This document shows positions 2,397 through 8,713 of a stretch of 64,000 nucleotides of DNA, piece by piece. Made by a program: the position numbers and the translations under genes. Below the pieces are notes generated by a model. The model was not told where the DNA came from. It saw only the letters and a program-made list of their open reading frames with translations, and searched no databases. The stretch's first letter is position 1, and each line of letters opens with the position of its first letter. The stretch is from Halorhabdus rudnickae (lineage in GTDB: Archaea > Halobacteriota > Halobacteria > Halobacteriales > Haloarculaceae), in contig NZ_CAAHFB010000001.1 in assembly GCF_900880625.1 (NCBI RefSeq), positions 1,922,001 through 1,986,000 of the forward strand, read 5' to 3'.

Positions 2397-3755
2397 TTAC
2401 TCCCGATCGCCCGCGCCGAGCGCGCTCTCGCCGACTTTCTCCGAACCTTCGATTCGCTCTTGGCCGTCCATGTACGGGACGAGCGCGTCGGGCACGGTCA
2501 CGGTGCCGTCGTCGTTCTGGTAGTATTCCAGGATTGCCACCAGCACGCGCGGCAGCGCCAGTCCCGAGGCATTCAGCGTGTGGAGAAACTCCGCGGATTC
2601 GTGACGTTCGGGCCGGTAGCGGATCCCGGCCCGCCGGGCCTGGAAGGCCTCGAAATTCGAGGCCGAGGAGACTTCGAGCCAGCGCCCGCCTGCTTCGGGA
2701 CCGTCGTCCATGTCATCGCCTGGAGCCCAGACCTCGATATCGTAGGTTTTCGCCGACGCGAAGGTCAGATCGCCGGTACAAAGTTCGAGCACGCGATAGG
2801 GCAGGTCCAGCTGTCGGAGGACTGCCTCGGCCTCATCGAGCAGTGCCTCCAGGCGGTCGTCACTGTCCTCGGGTTCGACGAAGTTGACGAGTTCGACCTT
2901 GTTGAACTGGTGGACGCGGACCATCCCGCGAGTTTCGGTGCCGTGTTCGCCGGCCTCCTGACGGAAGTTCGGCGTGTATGCCTGGTGTTTCAACGGGAGA
3001 TCGTCGGCGAGCAGTATCTCGTCGCGGTACATGTTCGTTACCGGCACCTCGGCAGTCGGACACAGCCAGAGATCTTCCTCTTCGAGTTTGTAGGCGTCGT
3101 CAGCAAATTTTGGGAGCTGGCCCGTTCCGGTCATCGACTCGCTGGAGACCGGGATTGGCGGAACCACCTCGTCGTAGCCTTGCTCACGATGGATATCCCG
3201 CATGAACTGGATGAGGGCGTGTTCCAGCTGGGCGGCGTCACCTTTGAGGAAGTAAAACCCCCCGCCCGAGACTTTCGCGCCGCGTTCGAAATCCAAGATG
3301 TCGAGTTCCTCACCGAGGTCGTAGTGGGGGATCACCTCGTCGGGCAGGTCCCGGAGTTCGTCGAATCCCCAGCGCCTGGTTTCCACGTTGTCACTTTCGT
3401 CCTCGCCCTCCGGAACGCCATCCTGAGGAATGTTCGGGAGTTCCAGTAGTCGCTTCTCCAGTTGGTCTTCGAGTTCGTCGGCCCGCTGTTCAACCTCTTG
3501 GAGTTCGGTCTTCAGTTCCTGAGAGCGCTCGATGGCCTCCTGGGCGGCCGCCTCGTCGCCAGCCTGTTTCAACTCGCCGATCTTCGAGGAGACTTCATTG
3601 CGCTCGTGTCGCAGGTCGTCACCGCGGGCCTTCAGCTCGCGCCATTCCTCGTCGATTTCCAGGATTGCGTCGAGGTCGACGTCCTCAACGCCGCGAGCCT
3701 CGAGGGTCTCTCGAACCTCCGCAGGATGCTCGCGGACGTACTGGCGTGGTAACAT
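2397..3755 (-). CDS. serS: Seryl-tRNA synthetase
   Basis: Charges tRNA-Ser with serine. The start is set at MLPRQYVREHP (3755), matching the usual SerRS N-terminus; an in-frame ATG nine codons upstream looks too early. Residues about 28-105 form the acidic, charged antiparallel coiled-coil tRNA arm. The class II core follows, with motif 2 (FRQEAGEHGTETRGM) and motif 3 (ASGLALPRVLVAILEYYQ). At 452 residues it is full length and of the common bacterial-like type, not the methanogen type. A tandem pair of the 46-bp repeat lies 100-265 bp upstream on the same strand. Confidence 0.96.
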   Translation of the reverse strand: MLPRQYVREHPAEVRETLEARGVEDVDLDAILEIDEEWRELKARGDDLRHERNEVSSKIGELKQAGDEAAAQEAIERSQELKTELQEVEQRADELEDQLEKRLLELPNIPQDGVPEGEDESDNVETRRWGFDELRDLPDEVIPHYDLGEELDILDFERGAKVSGGGFYFLKGDAAQLEHALIQFMRDIHREQGYDEVVPPIPVSSESMTGTGQLPKFADDAYKLEEEDLWLCPTAEVPVTNMYRDEILLADDLPLKHQAYTPNFRQEAGEHGTETRGMVRVHQFNKVELVNFVEPEDSDDRLEALLDEAEAVLRQLDLPYRVLELCTGDLTFASAKTYDIEVWAPGDDMDDGPEAGGRWLEVSSASNFEAFQARRAGIRYRPERHESAEFLHTLNASGLALPRVLVAILEYYQNDDGTVTVPDALVPYMDGQERIEGSEKVGESALGAGDRE

Positions 3756-3855: not shown

Positions 3856-3901
3856 AGAAACCCCGTCTATATCTCTACCTTGTAACGGGAAGCACTTAAA
3901 G
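3856..3901 (-). repeat. 46-bp intergenic repeat, copy 1
   Basis: Read on the minus strand it begins CTTTAAGTGCTTC and ends GATATAGACGGGGTTTCT. It differs from copies 2 and 4 at four positions in the middle. It lies exactly 120 bp from copy 2 in the same orientation; the bases between the two copies are unrelated to those between copies 3 and 4. Confidence 0.85.
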
Positions 3902-3975
3902 AACGCTTGCAACCTCAACCGACCACTCCATCCTCTCTCGGAATAGAACACACGTTGACGACTAGAACTGCCCGG

Positions 3976-4021
3976 AGAAACCCCGTCTATATCTTCACCT
4001 TGTAACCAGAAGCACTTAAAG
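3976..4021 (-). repeat. 46-bp intergenic repeat, copy 2
   Basis: Identical over all 46 bases to copy 4 on the opposite strand at 6349-6394. It starts 19 bp after the stop codon of the MBL-fold hydrolase gene and reads in the same direction as that gene. It contains TTTAAG, which resembles a haloarchaeal TATA box. One frame through it gives FKCFWLQGEDIDGVS, which could make gene callers extend an ORF across it. Confidence 0.88.
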
Positions 4022-4040
4022 GACGAATTGTGCAGAAAAT

Positions 4041-4646
4041 TCAGTCGTACTTTGGCTCGCGTTTCTCGGCCCGTTCGAGTGCCGTTTCGACCACGTCGCG
4101 GACGTCGCCGTGAAAGACGCCGCCGTGGCCGCTGTACATGTGCTCGACGCCACGGGGCATCCGATCGAGCAACTCGCGGATCGACTCGATGAGGCGCTCG
4201 CGCGACTGGCCGGGGTTGTCCGTCCGGCCGAAACTGCCGTACTCGAAAGCGCCGTCGTCGTGGACCACCACGTCGCCCGAAAAGAGGGTGGTCTCGCTGA
4301 CCAGCGAGACGTGGTCGTCGGCGTGGCCCGGCGTGTGGACGACCTCGAAGGTCTCGTCGCCGATTTCGACGGTGTCGCCATCGTCGAGAGGATCCGTTCG
4401 CCGAGGGTGCTCGGCGTAGGCGTAGCAGTCGGCGTCGAACGCGTCGAGGACGGACACGAGTTCGGCGACGTGGTCGCCGTGCTGATGGGTCACGACAACG
4501 GCGTCGAGTTCGTCGGTGTGCTCGCGGATCGCGTCGACGACGCCGTCCCACGCGCCGGCATCGACGAGCGTCGGGCGTTCGCCGGTCGCCAGATAGACGT
4601 TGGCGGTGAACGTCTCCGCGTCGCTCGTGACGTTGTGTACGTCCAT
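4041..4646 (-). CDS. MBL-fold metallo-hydrolase
   Basis: 201 residues from ATG at 4646 (MDVHNVTSDAETFTANVYL). The zinc-binding motif HQHGDH occupies residues 54-59; a further ligand His is in HTPGHADDHV and an Asp in FSGDVVV. A final His follows in MYSGHGGVFHG. This is the glyoxalase II/beta-lactamase-like fold; the substrate is unknown, with hydroxyacylglutathione-type thioesters as one possibility. It is divergent from the small MGFGSYDESEQ gene, and its stop codon is followed after 19 bp by the 46-bp repeat pair. Confidence 0.85.
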   Translation of the reverse strand: MDVHNVTSDAETFTANVYLATGERPTLVDAGAWDGVVDAIREHTDELDAVVVTHQHGDHVAELVSVLDAFDADCYAYAEHPRRTDPLDDGDTVEIGDETFEVVHTPGHADDHVSLVSETTLFSGDVVVHDDGAFEYGSFGRTDNPGQSRERLIESIRELLDRMPRGVEHMYSGHGGVFHGDVRDVVETALERAEKREPKYD

Positions 4647-4774
4647 ATGTGTAGGTTGGGGCGAGTGACCTGTTGAGTCTGGCGGTAGATCCGTTAGCAC
4701 GCGGGTTAGAAGAATACCATACCGTACAGAGGGGCGTGTGATTTTTCACCACGACAGTCATACGTACACATGAC

Positions 4775-4954
4775 ATGGGGTTCGGGAGTTACGACGAATC
4801 CGAACAGGACGCGCAGGACCTCGACGCTGATTTTGACGATGATGACGGGGTAAATACCGCCGAAAACACACACGATGGCAACGTCGAGTTCGAGTTCACC
4901 GCCTCGAACGACGAACTGCTCGATAAGTTATCCGACATCAAGGAGAATACCTGA
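4775..4954 (+). CDS. Short acidic haloarchaeal protein (MGFGSYDESEQ family, DUF5786-like)
   Basis: A 59-residue reading frame from ATG 4775 to TGA 4954 begins MGFGSYDESEQDAQDLDADF, the hallmark start of a short conserved haloarchaeal family. It ends SNDELLDKLSDIKENT. Nearly a third of residues are Asp or Glu. Function is unknown. It is easy to miss because of its length and because a longer antisense frame covers it. An AT-rich stretch (GTGATTTTTCACC) lies just upstream. Confidence 0.85.
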   Translation: MGFGSYDESEQDAQDLDADFDDDDGVNTAENTHDGNVEFEFTASNDELLDKLSDIKENT

Positions 4955-5029
4955 CGTGACTGGCGTGGCCGTCGCGCGAGCGGGCCGTTCGTCCGGGATG
5001 GTTCCCGCCTTTGTCTGGCAGCTATCGTC

Positions 5030-5590
5030 ATGAAAGCGGGCGTTCGAGCCCTAGGTATCGCCGAATCGTTCGTCGCCCAGCGCTCGACGCTAGCCGGCGC
5101 AGTCGTCCGCGCCAACCGTGTCGTCGACGGCTTCGTTTTCGGGACCTGCACTGTCGGGGGGAGCGACGCGACCGACGCGATCGTCGACATGGTCGAGCGC
5201 CTCGACCGCGAAGACGTCCGCTACTTGCTCGTCGCCGGGATCGCCCCCGCATGGTTCAACGTCGTCGACCTCCGGGCGATCCACGCGGCGACCGGGTTCC
5301 CGGTGCTCTCGGTCACCTTCGAGGAGAGCGACGGGCTAGAGCCGGCGCTTCGCGAGGAGTTCTCCGGCGAGGCGCTCGACCGTCGCCTATCGACCTACCA
5401 GACCCAGCCCGACCGCGAACCGGTGGCCGTCAACGGCGAGACGATCTACGTCCGCCAGGTCGGCCTGGACGGGGCCAAAGCACGCGAAGTTGTCCGGGGG
5501 TTCACGCCCGAGGGCGGGCGACCCGAGCCGCTCCGGGTGGCGCGACTGGCGGCCCGCGCCGCGGACGGCGCGTTCGGCTCGAAGCGATAG
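5030..5590 (+). CDS. DUF99 (UPF0215) family protein
   Basis: 186 residues beginning MKAGVRALGIAESF. The pattern GVRALGIAESF, VVDGFVFGTCTVGG and YLLVAGIAPAWFNVVDL matches the archaeal DUF99 family, which has an RNase H/endonuclease V-like fold. Biochemical function is not established. It lies 35 bp upstream of the uracil-DNA glycosylase, so a shared transcript and a nucleic-acid role are plausible, but that is inference. Confidence 0.8.
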   Translation: MKAGVRALGIAESFVAQRSTLAGAVVRANRVVDGFVFGTCTVGGSDATDAIVDMVERLDREDVRYLLVAGIAPAWFNVVDLRAIHAATGFPVLSVTFEESDGLEPALREEFSGEALDRRLSTYQTQPDREPVAVNGETIYVRQVGLDGAKAREVVRGFTPEGGRPEPLRVARLAARAADGAFGSKR

Positions 5591-5625
5591 CGGGGCTTTT
5601 GGCGACCCGGGTCCCACGCCCGCCC

Positions 5626-6210
5626 ATGGACCACATGGACGACCTCACGGTGACGGGGTGTGAACGCTGCCCGGAACTCGTCACCTCGCGGTCGCGGATC
5701 GTCGACGGCGTCGGACCAGCCGACGCAGACGTACTGTTCGTCGGCGAGGCACCTGGCGAGCATGAAGACGACGACGGCGAACCCTTCGTTGGCCGGAGCG
5801 GGACGGTCCTCGACGACGCACTCAGGGACGCTGGACTGGCCCGCGCGGACGTTCGCATCACCAACTGCGTCCGGTGTCGCCCACCCGAGAACCGCGATCC
5901 TCGGAGCGAAGAACTGGCGAATTGCCGGGGCTATCTCGAACGGGAGATCGAACTCGTCGATCCCACGGTGATCGTCACGCTCGGGAAGGTTCCGGGCGAG
6001 CACCTCCTCGGTCGGGACGTGGCCGTCACGAGCGAGGCCGGTTCGATCGAAACGGTCGCGATCGGAGACGCGCACCGACGCGTGCTCGTTTGTGTCCATC
6101 CAGCAGCGACGCTGTACGACCGGAGCCAGCAGGAAACCTTCGAGGAGACGATCCGGCAAGCCGCTGATCTGGCTGGCGGCGGCGGACAGGCCGAATTGGG
6201 GGACTTCTGA
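5626..6210 (+). CDS. Family 4 uracil-DNA glycosylase (4Fe-4S)
   Basis: Removes uracil from DNA in base-excision repair. I choose ATG 5626 (MDHMDDLTVTGCERCPEL), giving 194 residues. The four cluster cysteines are C12, C15, C84 and C100, with the C-X2-C and C-X15-C spacing of the family. Motif A is GEAPGEHEDDDGEPFVGRSG (residues 40-59) and the second active-site motif is VHPAA near 157-161. A frame open further upstream belongs to overlap with the DUF99 gene. The gene is followed 19 bp later by copies 3 and 4 of the 46-bp repeat. Confidence 0.92.
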   Translation: MDHMDDLTVTGCERCPELVTSRSRIVDGVGPADADVLFVGEAPGEHEDDDGEPFVGRSGTVLDDALRDAGLARADVRITNCVRCRPPENRDPRSEELANCRGYLEREIELVDPTVIVTLGKVPGEHLLGRDVAVTSEAGSIETVAIGDAHRRVLVCVHPAATLYDRSQQETFEETIRQAADLAGGGGQAELGDF

Positions 6211-6229
6211 GTTCGCCCTGGCCGAATCT

Positions 6230-6275
6230 CTTTAAGTGCTTCTGGTCACAAGGTAAAGATATAGACGGAGTTTCT
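6230..6275 (+). repeat. 46-bp intergenic repeat, copy 3
   Basis: Begins CTTTAAGTGCTTCTGG and ends ATATAGACGGAGTTTCT. It differs from copy 4 at three positions. It starts 19 bp after the stop codon of the uracil-DNA glycosylase gene, the same distance as copy 2 from the MBL hydrolase gene. Confidence 0.87.
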
Positions 6276-6348
6276 CCCGGTGATTTTCGCTTCGAGACAT
6301 GCTGTCGAGAGTGCCTTATCGACGACTTGACTCAGCTCCTCGGTTTTC

Positions 6349-6394
6349 TTTAAGTGCTTCTGGTTACAAGGTGAAGATATAGACGGGGTTTCTG
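6349..6394 (+). repeat. 46-bp intergenic repeat, copy 4
   Basis: Identical to copy 2 in inverted orientation, 2.3 kb away. It begins 119 bp after copy 3. It lies 82 bp before the start of the RNA polymerase epsilon gene, so its TTTAAG could serve as a promoter element for that gene. Confidence 0.87.
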
Positions 6395-6475
6395 CGAGGG
6401 AAGTCAACGTTCGATAGACGCGAATGCGTCCGGACCCAGTGGATTCAACTGTCCGTAGCGAGGAGTCACGTAGTG

Positions 6476-7210
6476 ATGGACAGCGAGGGCGAGAACGGCG
6501 CGAGTCGGTCCCAGGAGCCGGCCGACCGGGAGCGCCAAGAGTGGCGCGAGCAGCGCGAAGTTTCGACCCGGCCAGGAGATGGAACGCTCTCGCGAGCCGA
6601 GGCGAACCGAGACGCGACGATCAGGCAGTGGGACGTGGTAACCCCCAGTGCGACGATTATCGGTCGCCCCGATCGCCCTGACGCCGACGTCGACGAATCG
6701 CTCCGGCGGCTCCACGACGAGCAACACCCTGCCATGGCCGGCCACGCCGAGCGGATGCACCGCCTGGACAAGGCACGGATCACGCACGCGCTGTGTAACG
6801 CCCTCGATCTGACGCCCTGGGAGCGCGACCGCATCCTGGGAATCATGACCGAGCTCGATTTGACGGCATTCGGGAGCCAGCGAGGGATTCCGACGGTCGC
6901 ACTGGTCGTCATCCGCCACGTCGTCGACGCCGAGCGTCGGCGACAGCTCGGTCTCGAGGACGCCGAGCGGATCGCCGAGTTGACGCCAGACGAGATGGCC
7001 TCACTGTACGAGCTGTTCACCTCGATCACCGACGAGTCGGCCTACCAGAATCTGATCGAAGCCCACGGCCTCGATCAGACGAGTGTCAACCGCCTAGAGC
7101 GGGTACTCGAAGAACAACTCGACGAACAGGAGCTGGCCGACGCCGTCTTCGGTCGGTCACCCCATCGCGATCCGAACCTGGATTCGGTCGCCCGATCCGC
7201 GTCAGAGTGA
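6476..7210 (+). CDS. Haloarchaeal DNA-directed RNA polymerase subunit epsilon family protein
   Basis: About 244 residues; ATG at 6476 is preceded directly by an in-frame GTG. The conserved block ATIRQWDVVTPSATIIG and the core LDKARITHALCNALDLTPWE followed by VALVVIRHVVD match proteins annotated as the halobacterial RNA polymerase epsilon subunit. The central helical part resembles a cyclin-like repeat of the type in TFB, which is my inference. The N-terminal 30 residues are charged and probably disordered. Direct evidence for association with the polymerase is limited in the family. Confidence 0.75.
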   Translation: MDSEGENGASRSQEPADRERQEWREQREVSTRPGDGTLSRAEANRDATIRQWDVVTPSATIIGRPDRPDADVDESLRRLHDEQHPAMAGHAERMHRLDKARITHALCNALDLTPWERDRILGIMTELDLTAFGSQRGIPTVALVVIRHVVDAERRRQLGLEDAERIAELTPDEMASLYELFTSITDESAYQNLIEAHGLDQTSVNRLERVLEEQLDEQELADAVFGRSPHRDPNLDSVARSASE

Positions 7211-7294
7211 TCGCCGAGGCGGGCGAATCAAGGGACGATCGGCAACCGTTGAGCGAACGGAAAGGGCCAAGGCCGGGCCGATCGAACAGCGGGT

Positions 7295-7942
7295 ATGACC
7301 GAGCGCCAGACGACCGCCGAGGTGGTCGTCCTCGATTACGGACTGGGCAATCTCCGGAGTGTCACGCGCGGCCTCGAACGCGCGGACGCCCACGTCCAGA
7401 TATCGGACGATCCTGCTGATCTCGACGCCGCCGACGGGATCGTCCTGCCAGGAGTGGGCGCGTTCAGCGAGGGAATGGATAACGCCGGTCCGTTCCGCGA
7501 TATCCTCCTCGATGCCGCCACCGAGGGCAAACCGCTACTAGGCATCTGTCTCGGCATGCAGATGCTATTGACCGACAGTCAAGAGGCCGAACACGCTGGG
7601 GAGGGCGACGTGAAGGGACTGGACCTGATCCCCGGGACGAACGTGCGCTTCGGTGGCGACCGGAAAGTCCCGCATATGGGCTGGAACGAACTCTCAGTCG
7701 GGCGCGACCACCCGCTGTTGGCGGGCGTCGACGGTGAACACGCCTATTTCGTCCACTCGTATTACGCCCAACCGGACGACCGAGACGCTGCCGTCGCCAC
7801 GACCGACTACGGCGAGCGCTTCGCCAGCGTCGTCGCCAACGAGGCGGGCAACGTCATGGGAACGCAGTTCCACCCCGAAAAGTCAGGGGAGACTGGCCTT
7901 CGCATCCTTCGGAACTTCGTCGAGTACTGTGGGGATCGCTGA
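7295..7942 (+). CDS. hisH: Imidazole glycerol phosphate synthase, glutaminase subunit
   Basis: Glutamine amidotransferase that supplies ammonia to HisF in histidine biosynthesis. 215 residues. The nucleophile C85 lies in GICLGMQML; the triad is completed by H193 and E195 in QFHPEKSG. The start MTERQTTAEVVVLDYGLGNL is typical. Other his genes are not adjacent; hisI lies about 3.2 kb downstream, which agrees with the scattered his genes of haloarchaea. Confidence 0.95.
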   Translation: MTERQTTAEVVVLDYGLGNLRSVTRGLERADAHVQISDDPADLDAADGIVLPGVGAFSEGMDNAGPFRDILLDAATEGKPLLGICLGMQMLLTDSQEAEHAGEGDVKGLDLIPGTNVRFGGDRKVPHMGWNELSVGRDHPLLAGVDGEHAYFVHSYYAQPDDRDAAVATTDYGERFASVVANEAGNVMGTQFHPEKSGETGLRILRNFVEYCGDR

Positions 7943-7963
7943 CCGCCCGGAGTCCAAAAGCCC

Positions 7964-8254
7964 TCACAGCGCCCCGACGACGACCACAGCCGACCAGACC
8001 ATCATCAATCCGCCCAGGACGATACCAACCCAGCCGACCGCTTGCAACACCCGCGTCGATATCTGGTCGAGGTCGATCCGATCAGGATTGTCGACGACAG
8101 CGGCGCCAAATCCGGTCAAGAGGATGCCCACGCCCAGTTCCAACACGACGGTCAGCGTCGGCTGATCGCCGACAGCAAACTGGGAGACACCCACGGCCAG
8201 ATTCCCCAGGCCGAGCACCAACACACCGAGTCCGTACCGTAGCCGGGTATCCAT
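7964..8254 (-). CDS. Small integral membrane protein
   Basis: About 96 residues from MDTRLRYGLGVLVLGLGNLA. Three hydrophobic stretches are visible: one at the N-terminus, one around LTVVLELGVGILLTGFGAAV and one at the C-terminus (VGWVGIVLGGLMMVWSAVV). No recognised domain. In-frame ATG codons at 8278 and 8344 are alternatives, but the later one keeps the N-terminus compact and avoids overlap with the ridA promoter. It is convergent with hisH, 21 bp apart. Confidence 0.6.
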   Translation of the reverse strand: MDTRLRYGLGVLVLGLGNLAVGVSQFAVGDQPTLTVVLELGVGILLTGFGAAVVDNPDRIDLDQISTRVLQAVGWVGIVLGGLMMVWSAVVVVGAL

Positions 8255-8304
8255 ACGGCATTCGAGGTCGGCGACCATGATAAAGTGACAGGCATCGACG
8301 GCGG

Positions 8305-8311
8305 TTTTATA
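8305..8311 (+). promoter_or_regulatory. TATA box of ridA
   Basis: TTTTATA centred 28 bp before the ridA start codon. This spacing predicts transcription starting at or within a few bases of the ATG, i.e. a leaderless mRNA. Confidence 0.6.
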
Positions 8312-8335
8312 CACATGGCCGTCGGGAACGAGCGT

Positions 8336-8713
8336 ATGAAGCACACGATCGAGACCGACGACGCGCCCGCCGCTGTCGGTGCCTACAGCCAGGCGACAGC
8401 GACGGACGATCTGGTATTCACCGCCGGACAGATCCCGCTGACGCCGGACGGAGATCTGCTCGACGAGGCAGACATCGATGTCCAGACCCAGCAGGCCTTA
8501 GAGAACGTCACGGCAGTCCTTGCCGAAGCCGGCGCAGGCATGGACGACGTACTGAAAGTGACCGTCTACGTCGAGGACATCGACGACTTCGAGGCGATGG
8601 ACGCGGCCTACGAGACGTTCTTCGAGGCGTCCCCACCGGCCCGTAGCGCCGTCGAGGTGGCCGCCCTCCCGAAGGGCGTCGGCGTCGAGATCGAAGCCGT
8701 GGCGACGCGCTGA
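8336..8713 (+). CDS. ridA: RidA family enamine/imine deaminase
   Basis: 125 residues from ATG 8336 (MKHTIETDDAPAAVGAYSQA). Conserved family elements are AVGAYSQA, FTAGQIPLTPDG, QTQQALENV and PPARSAVEVAALPKG. The Arg in PPARS binds the carboxylate of the imine substrate. RidA proteins hydrolyse reactive enamines and imines made by PLP enzymes. I chose this start because of the TATA box 28 bp upstream and the family N-terminus. The next gene begins one base after the stop codon. Confidence 0.92.
   Translation: MKHTIETDDAPAAVGAYSQATATDDLVFTAGQIPLTPDGDLLDEADIDVQTQQALENVTAVLAEAGAGMDDVLKVTVYVEDIDDFEAMDAAYETFFEASPPARSAVEVAALPKGVGVEIEAVATR

Follow-up and report, generated by a model that had tools for sequence, protein, structure and literature searches.

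In Halorhabdus rudnickae, a genomic stretch of 64,000 nucleotides (64 kb; hereafter the window) contains a short repeat in four copies, arranged as two tandem pairs in opposite orientation on either side of a block of four genes. Each pair closely follows the stop codon of one gene and precedes the start of another, which raises the question of which of these genes the repeat serves, and in what capacity. A tandem promoter, a 3' processing signal and a dispersed element had all been considered in the initial annotation.

Four repeat copies between serS and an RNA polymerase subunit gene

The copies are 46-47 bp each and their identities to the best 47-mer are 43/47 (positions 3856-3902), 46/47 (3976-4022), 44/47 (6229-6275) and 47/47 (6347-6393), which bears out the number and arrangement first described. 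The copy-to-copy spacing is 120 bp in the left pair, which is located on the reverse strand, and 118 bp in the right pair, which is located on the forward strand. Searches with the core pattern TTTAAGTNNYTCYSGYNAYAA, allowing for at most 2 mismatches, yielded 4 matches in 64 kb versus 0.02 expected from dinucleotide shuffles, with no match in the window beyond the four copies. In the direction from TTTAAG to GGGGTTTCT, the left pair aims left into serS, the gene for serine--tRNA ligase (2397..3755, reverse strand; TIGR00414, 485.7 bits), and the right pair aims right into an ORF at 6476-7210 (forward strand, 244 aa). The enclosed genes code for an MBL-fold hydrolase (4041..4643, reverse strand; PF00753), a short acidic DUF5786 protein (4775..4954, forward; PF19099), endonuclease dU, formerly DUF99 (5030..5590, forward; NF052283, PF01949), and a family 4 uracil-DNA glycosylase, UDG (5626..6210, forward; TIGR00758). 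A gap of 18 bases separates the MBL stop (4041) from the left pair and the UDG stop (6210) from the right pair, and the element therefore begins at the 19th base past the stop in both cases, as originally noted.

The ORF at 6476-7210 matched no Pfam or NCBIfam model. Four homologues of nearly full length, with sequence identities of 58-65%, are encoded on haloarchaeal plasmids and carry the RefSeq name DNA-directed RNA polymerase subunit epsilon. We refer to the gene as rpoeps on the basis of these names and of the family survey described below. Epsilon is an additional subunit in a subset of the haloarchaea, the biological relevance of which was called "enigmatic" in a 2021 review (PMC8305020). 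Polymerase with epsilon transcribes native templates efficiently while polymerase without it does not, according to a passage of that review citing Madon and Zillig (1983). The untranslated leader around GTGGATTCAACTGTCCGTAGCG, between the element and the rpoeps start (6394-6475 in the window), is conserved among the Halorhabdus genomes.

A fifth and more divergent copy was identified in the same genome on contig C4 (108405-108456), flanked by a gene of the inositol-monophosphatase family and by a comB-like gene in convergent orientation. The latter (G000:C4:103500-113500, 5237-5818) encodes 193 aa as compared to 255 aa in relatives and contains a premature stop, and is probably a decaying gene in this genome. 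Since additional copies were present both here and in the relatives, the four copies in the window do not represent a simple recent duplication of the kind that the initial annotation had raised.

Linkage of the element to the downstream genes

The locus is shared with the named relatives H. amylolytica and H. salina, and we compared it among seven Halorhabdus genomes. The homologues of serS and of rpoeps were each preceded by a copy of the element in 7/7 genomes, sometimes doubled. Measured from the first T of TTTAAGT in the nearest copy, the distance to the start codon was about 112-127 bp for rpoeps and 131-145 bp for serS, whereas the distance from the preceding stop codon to the element ranged from 18 bp to more than 900 bp because extra sequence separates the MBL gene from the element in two of the genomes (G004 and G005). 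In a third genome (G003), the block containing the genes for MBL, DUF5786, endonuclease dU and UDG is inverted relative to the other six (G003:C1:2070500-2085500, approximately 6078-8670), and the inverted part lies exactly between the two inverted element copies. With the block turned, UDG precedes the serS copy and MBL precedes the rpoeps copy, and both serS and rpoeps have kept their copies. The inversion was likely caused by recombination between the inverted copies. Since the start-codon distance is near constant, the stop distance is variable and the copies were retained in G003, the element goes with the downstream genes, and the MBL gene is an upstream neighbour outside its target set. 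That both pairs in the window follow a stop codon at the same distance of 19 bp is, judging from these comparisons, a coincidence. The suggestion of a 3' processing signal was thus abandoned, given the range of stop distances within one genus, the exchange of the preceding genes in G003 and the lack of RNA folding above shuffles (see below).

The TATA-like nature of TTTAAG was upheld: the collected copies all contain a TTTAAGT box, and in Halorhabdus the nearest copy is 112-145 bp from the start codon of serS or rpoeps, a fitting distance for a core promoter. For comparison, the class I intergenic repeats of HF2 are measured promoters of 56-58 bp with a CTTTAAGT TATA motif from -26 and a G start (PMC8707807), and this spacing was used to predict start sites for the four copies, all of which were identified both directly in the sequence and by model match. 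In copy 1 (3976-4022), the putative distal promoter of serS, TTTAAGT runs from 4020 with a predicted start at about 3994, while in copy 2 (3856-3902), the putative proximal promoter with a position that is kept in 7/7 Halorhabdus genomes, it runs from 3900 with a predicted start at about 3874, some 120 nt from the serS ATG at 3755. Likewise, the candidate distal promoter of rpoeps, copy 3 (6229-6275), has TTTAAGT from 6231 and a predicted start at about 6257, and the candidate proximal promoter, copy 4 (6347-6393), has TTTAAGT from 6349 and a predicted start at about 6375, some 100 nt from the ATG at 6476. That transcription starts at the element, and at these bases, is what we infer from the spacing.

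The element resembles the HF2 class I repeats in being a repeated sequence of promoter type with TATA at -26, a conserved region around the start site and few copies per genome, although the activity was measured in HF2 (PMC8707807) and the element in the window is known by its sequence. It differs from them in that the HF2 repeats serve viral early and middle genes, have another start-site motif and have no link to rpoeps. The class I motifs beta, TCTTTAAGTC, and gamma, CGTCTNNTAGAG, as printed in PMC8707807, were absent from the element consensus, such that the TATA part alone is shared.

A structure at the RNA level, a hairpin or leader, was rejected. The fold z-scores were 1.5 and 1.75 for two copies and 0.4 and -0.2 for the leaders predicted before serS and rpoeps, none of which indicates folding above that of shuffles, and there was no match to Rfam at E-values up to 1.

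Distribution across the Halobacteria

A model built from the sequence only recovered the element in all Halorhabdus, in Halorientalis marina and in a lineage that comprises Halocatena and 'Actinarchaeum', with 4-10 copies each in the latter lineage. It also caught a divergent form in another genus, in which 1-5 copies are located immediately before rpoeps. We surveyed 242 Halobacteria genomes, 99 of which contained a full rpoeps gene (E < 1e-50). At least one sense element (1-5) was present within 700 bp upstream of 63 of the 76 rpoeps loci, and relaxed matching added 3, yielding 66, while an antisense element was found within the same distance at 0 of the 76. The nearest upstream element was mostly located 100-250 bp before the rpoeps start, across families. 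Among the failing loci were those of genus g2, with no element in front, others in which the element is present downstream alone, and a locus whose epsilon is divergent. In genus g2, two copies of a variant element, TTTAAGTGGTTCTGGTCGCAATGGCTGATAGTGAG, are located away from rpoeps (G007:C1:496752-499772, 61-107 and 1473-1519). An epsilon-like paralogue on a small contig of another genome (G201:C4:97500-102500, about 2480) is itself preceded by an element, at a distance of about 180 bp, and short or partial epsilon paralogues on other plasmid-size contigs match phrog_12649, a viral family of unknown function.

The consensus of 172 copies is TTTAAGT-G/A-N-T/C-TCT-G/C-G-T/C-N-A-C/T-AA-G/C-G, followed by a less strictly conserved segment across the presumed start site. 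The pattern used to collect the copies was fixed at TTTAAGT, TC, A and AA, with the remaining positions free, and a model search without any fixed pattern recovered the same TTTAAGT box. As stated in the initial annotation, the sequence between the copies of a pair is not conserved, but its constant length did not hold: the tandem spacing in the relatives is 96-389 bp with a median of 133 bp, and a period of 120 bp is not general. The proposed tandem promoter fared better, given the near-constant distance to downstream starts, the class-wide site before rpoeps and the lack of antisense copies at the 76 loci, and the promoter identity of the element is well supported by these comparisons.

That the element is instead a dispersed repeat, a mobile short element or a signal for 3' end processing or termination seems to us barely credible. 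Copies do occur at non-orthologous sites and on several replicons, so that the earlier mention of a dispersed element was partly right, and those in the window closely follow stop codons. Yet conservation tracks rpoeps rather than a mobile unit, with sense orientation and a preferred distance before this gene across families, the stop distances are as variable as described above, and there are 2-10 copies per genome. No viral contig contained a match with either pattern, and a viral origin was rejected.

The element was found where epsilon is present, with the core pattern in 93 of the 99 genomes with a full rpoeps gene versus 1 of the 143 without (a single divergent match, in G025). A reversed-pattern control gave zero matches in all 242 genomes. 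Fisher's test of the co-occurrence yielded a p-value of 1.9e-58, a test that ignores ancestry. Gene and element nevertheless co-segregate within genera g42 and g48, and in family f4 the only genome to contain the element is also the only one with a full rpoeps. The family of Haloferax volcanii lacks rpoeps in almost every genome that was sampled. Joint loss of rpoeps with its own promoter accounts for part of this pattern. However, in 26 of the 40 genomes listed, some copies are located at a distance of over 5 kb from rpoeps or on a different contig, and the co-occurrence is therefore not merely that of a gene carrying its own promoter.

The same figures bear on the idea that the element is a strong housekeeping promoter for TBP and TFB, duplicated before serS and rpoeps, with rpoeps as simply its most conserved target. 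The TATA-like box and its spacing are canonical, and haloarchaeal rRNA operons are known for several near-identical promoters in a row, spaced by about 100-150 bp and with a (T/C)TTAAGT box. The pairs in the window resemble these in the near-identity of the series, the spacing and the box, but the sequence from TATA to the start and the targets differ, and the possibility that the element is the same as this genome's rRNA promoters was rejected, since the region upstream of its rRNA gave no match to the model. In ordinary archaeal promoters the region from the TATA box to the start site is hardly conserved, so that base-by-base conservation of this region across the class is unexpected of a promoter of that kind, as is the lack of the element in 142 of the 143 genomes without rpoeps. 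We consider this explanation improbable.

Off-locus copies were nearer to the rpoeps-side element of their own genome than to the average of other lineages in 60 of 60 cases, with mean identities of 0.79 versus 0.60 (permutation p = 0.0005). Joint drift of dispersed sites within a lineage is predicted if these sites are read by a shared DNA-reading factor, although some of the effect may stem from gene conversion or recent copying.

The genes near these copies were listed from pattern hits plus a sample of 40 regions, using a crude ORF caller. Sense copies precede serS in Halorhabdus, a gene for a UbiA-family prenyltransferase in four genomes of family f6, a methyltransferase gene, a gene for a cold-shock-domain protein with three copies (G210), and the DsbA and RlaP genes adjoining rpoeps. 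Many of the remaining copies are flanked by convergent genes or run antisense to the start of a gene, as at TRAM-domain genes (G328), mutS, peroxiredoxin, comB and a PIN-domain gene, and by the same crude calling an ORF starts within 500 bp on the same strand for only about 17 of the 60 off-locus copies. Several copies in G328 (L164-L168) form part of a repeated cassette, each on the 3' side of a TRAM-domain gene at a distance of about 104 bp from its end, and three of these copies have a small gene, PadR-like or other, upstream.

The convergent and antisense copies may either make antisense or non-coding RNA or indicate a further role of the element. Such RNAs could even be its main product, with several copies acting on the 3' ends of neighbours such as comB, TRAM and vapC, and copies between convergent genes do recur in several lineages, as do the TRAM-side copies within one genome. 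However, the transcript body beyond the element is not conserved, neither the copies nor the predicted leaders of serS and rpoeps fold above shuffles, Rfam gave no match, and the rpoeps-side copies are all in sense orientation, which makes this a very improbable account of the element as a whole.

The epsilon subunit and a candidate promoter class

Our best reading, for which we have moderate confidence, is that each repeat is an extended core promoter of an epsilon-linked promoter class that is probably self-regulating, the tandem pairs being double promoters that would fire outward, to the left into serS and to the right into rpoeps. It draws on the class-wide conservation, the sense site before rpoeps, the co-occurrence with this gene and the within-genome likeness of the dispersed copies, all of them comparisons of sequences. 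The matching architecture of the HF2 class I repeats and the effect of epsilon on the transcription of native templates fit it as well. Relative to a start at +1, the TATA-like box TTTAAGT would occupy about -26 to -20 and the specific stretch NN-YTCT-SG-YNA-YAA-SG about -19 to -4, followed by a purine start and about a dozen conserved transcribed bases, and leaders from the proximal copies would be about 100-120 nt in length. The specific sequence from TATA to the start is unusual, as is the conservation of the first bases to be transcribed. In the simplest account, RNA polymerase containing epsilon may recognise, open, need or prefer the conserved region after the TATA box, part of which is melted at initiation. 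Epsilon would then serve as a specificity subunit whose few target genes include its own, giving a self-regulating circuit in which tandem copies may raise dose or sensitivity. A contact between epsilon and the DNA is inferred, as is the direction of any regulation. Counting against a promoter class read by epsilon are the small share of off-locus copies with a nearby sense ORF (about 17/60) and the rpoeps genes of genus g2 that lack an element in front.

The structure prediction for epsilon was of little help. AlphaFold was confident only for residues 90-222 approximately, which form an all-helical domain. TFIIB and cyclin T recurred among the best Foldseek hits to this protein, an archaeal TFB included, at non-significant E-values of 0.15 or worse. 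A Pfam search at E-values up to 10 detected no TFIIB domain, the hhalign probability against the TFBs of this genome was 0.4% and a sequence search of solved structures was empty. Neither by fold nor by profile was epsilon linked at a significant level to an initiation factor known to read DNA. A relation of epsilon to TFB was set aside as unsupported, since the profiles show none, the search of structures was empty and the fold hits are not significant. Given how little the structure contributes, that epsilon works like a specificity factor is put forward as a hypothesis, and that it is a TFB is unsupported. The proposed class resembles the multiple-TFB systems of haloarchaea in that basal factors choose sets of promoters, with TFIIB and cyclin among the weak fold hits of epsilon, but epsilon is without a recognisable TFIIB domain.

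Bacterial sigma factors associate with the polymerase and define promoter classes, and genes for alternative sigma factors can be autoregulated. The likeness to sigma regulons is that a polymerase-bound factor is proposed to define a promoter class and to regulate its own gene. The differences are that there is no homology, that archaeal initiation uses TBP and TFB, and that recognition by epsilon is a proposal. On this analogy we tentatively suggest that epsilon may be a sigma-like promoter-specificity factor beside TBP and TFB, that it may read the stretch from TATA to the start, control its own gene via the tandem copies, and drive a small, lineage-variable set of genes (those for serS, the UbiA-family prenyltransferase, the cold-shock protein, DsbA and RlaP) plus some antisense transcripts.

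Alternatively, the element may be a promoter with a built-in operator for another regulator, a repressor or an activator, that governs rpoeps along with a few more genes and comes and goes with them, such that epsilon is a target rather than the reader. Conserved sequence between TATA and the start is a usual place of a repressor site, an operator would produce the same co-occurrence and within-genome likeness, and the targets other than rpoeps differ among lineages. It requires, however, another factor that is distributed over the phylogeny in the same way as rpoeps, and we regard this alternative as unlikely, while giving it some weight.

The search for earlier reports covered the freely readable literature; here we found no described motif that matches the element and no report of a class-wide promoter type tied to epsilon. 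If the element is read by epsilon, as the sigma-like reading would have it, archaeal RNA polymerase would have a specificity subunit outside the scheme of TBP and TFB. With a conserved promoter that tracks epsilon across the class, before its own gene and before others, the role of this enigmatic subunit becomes testable.
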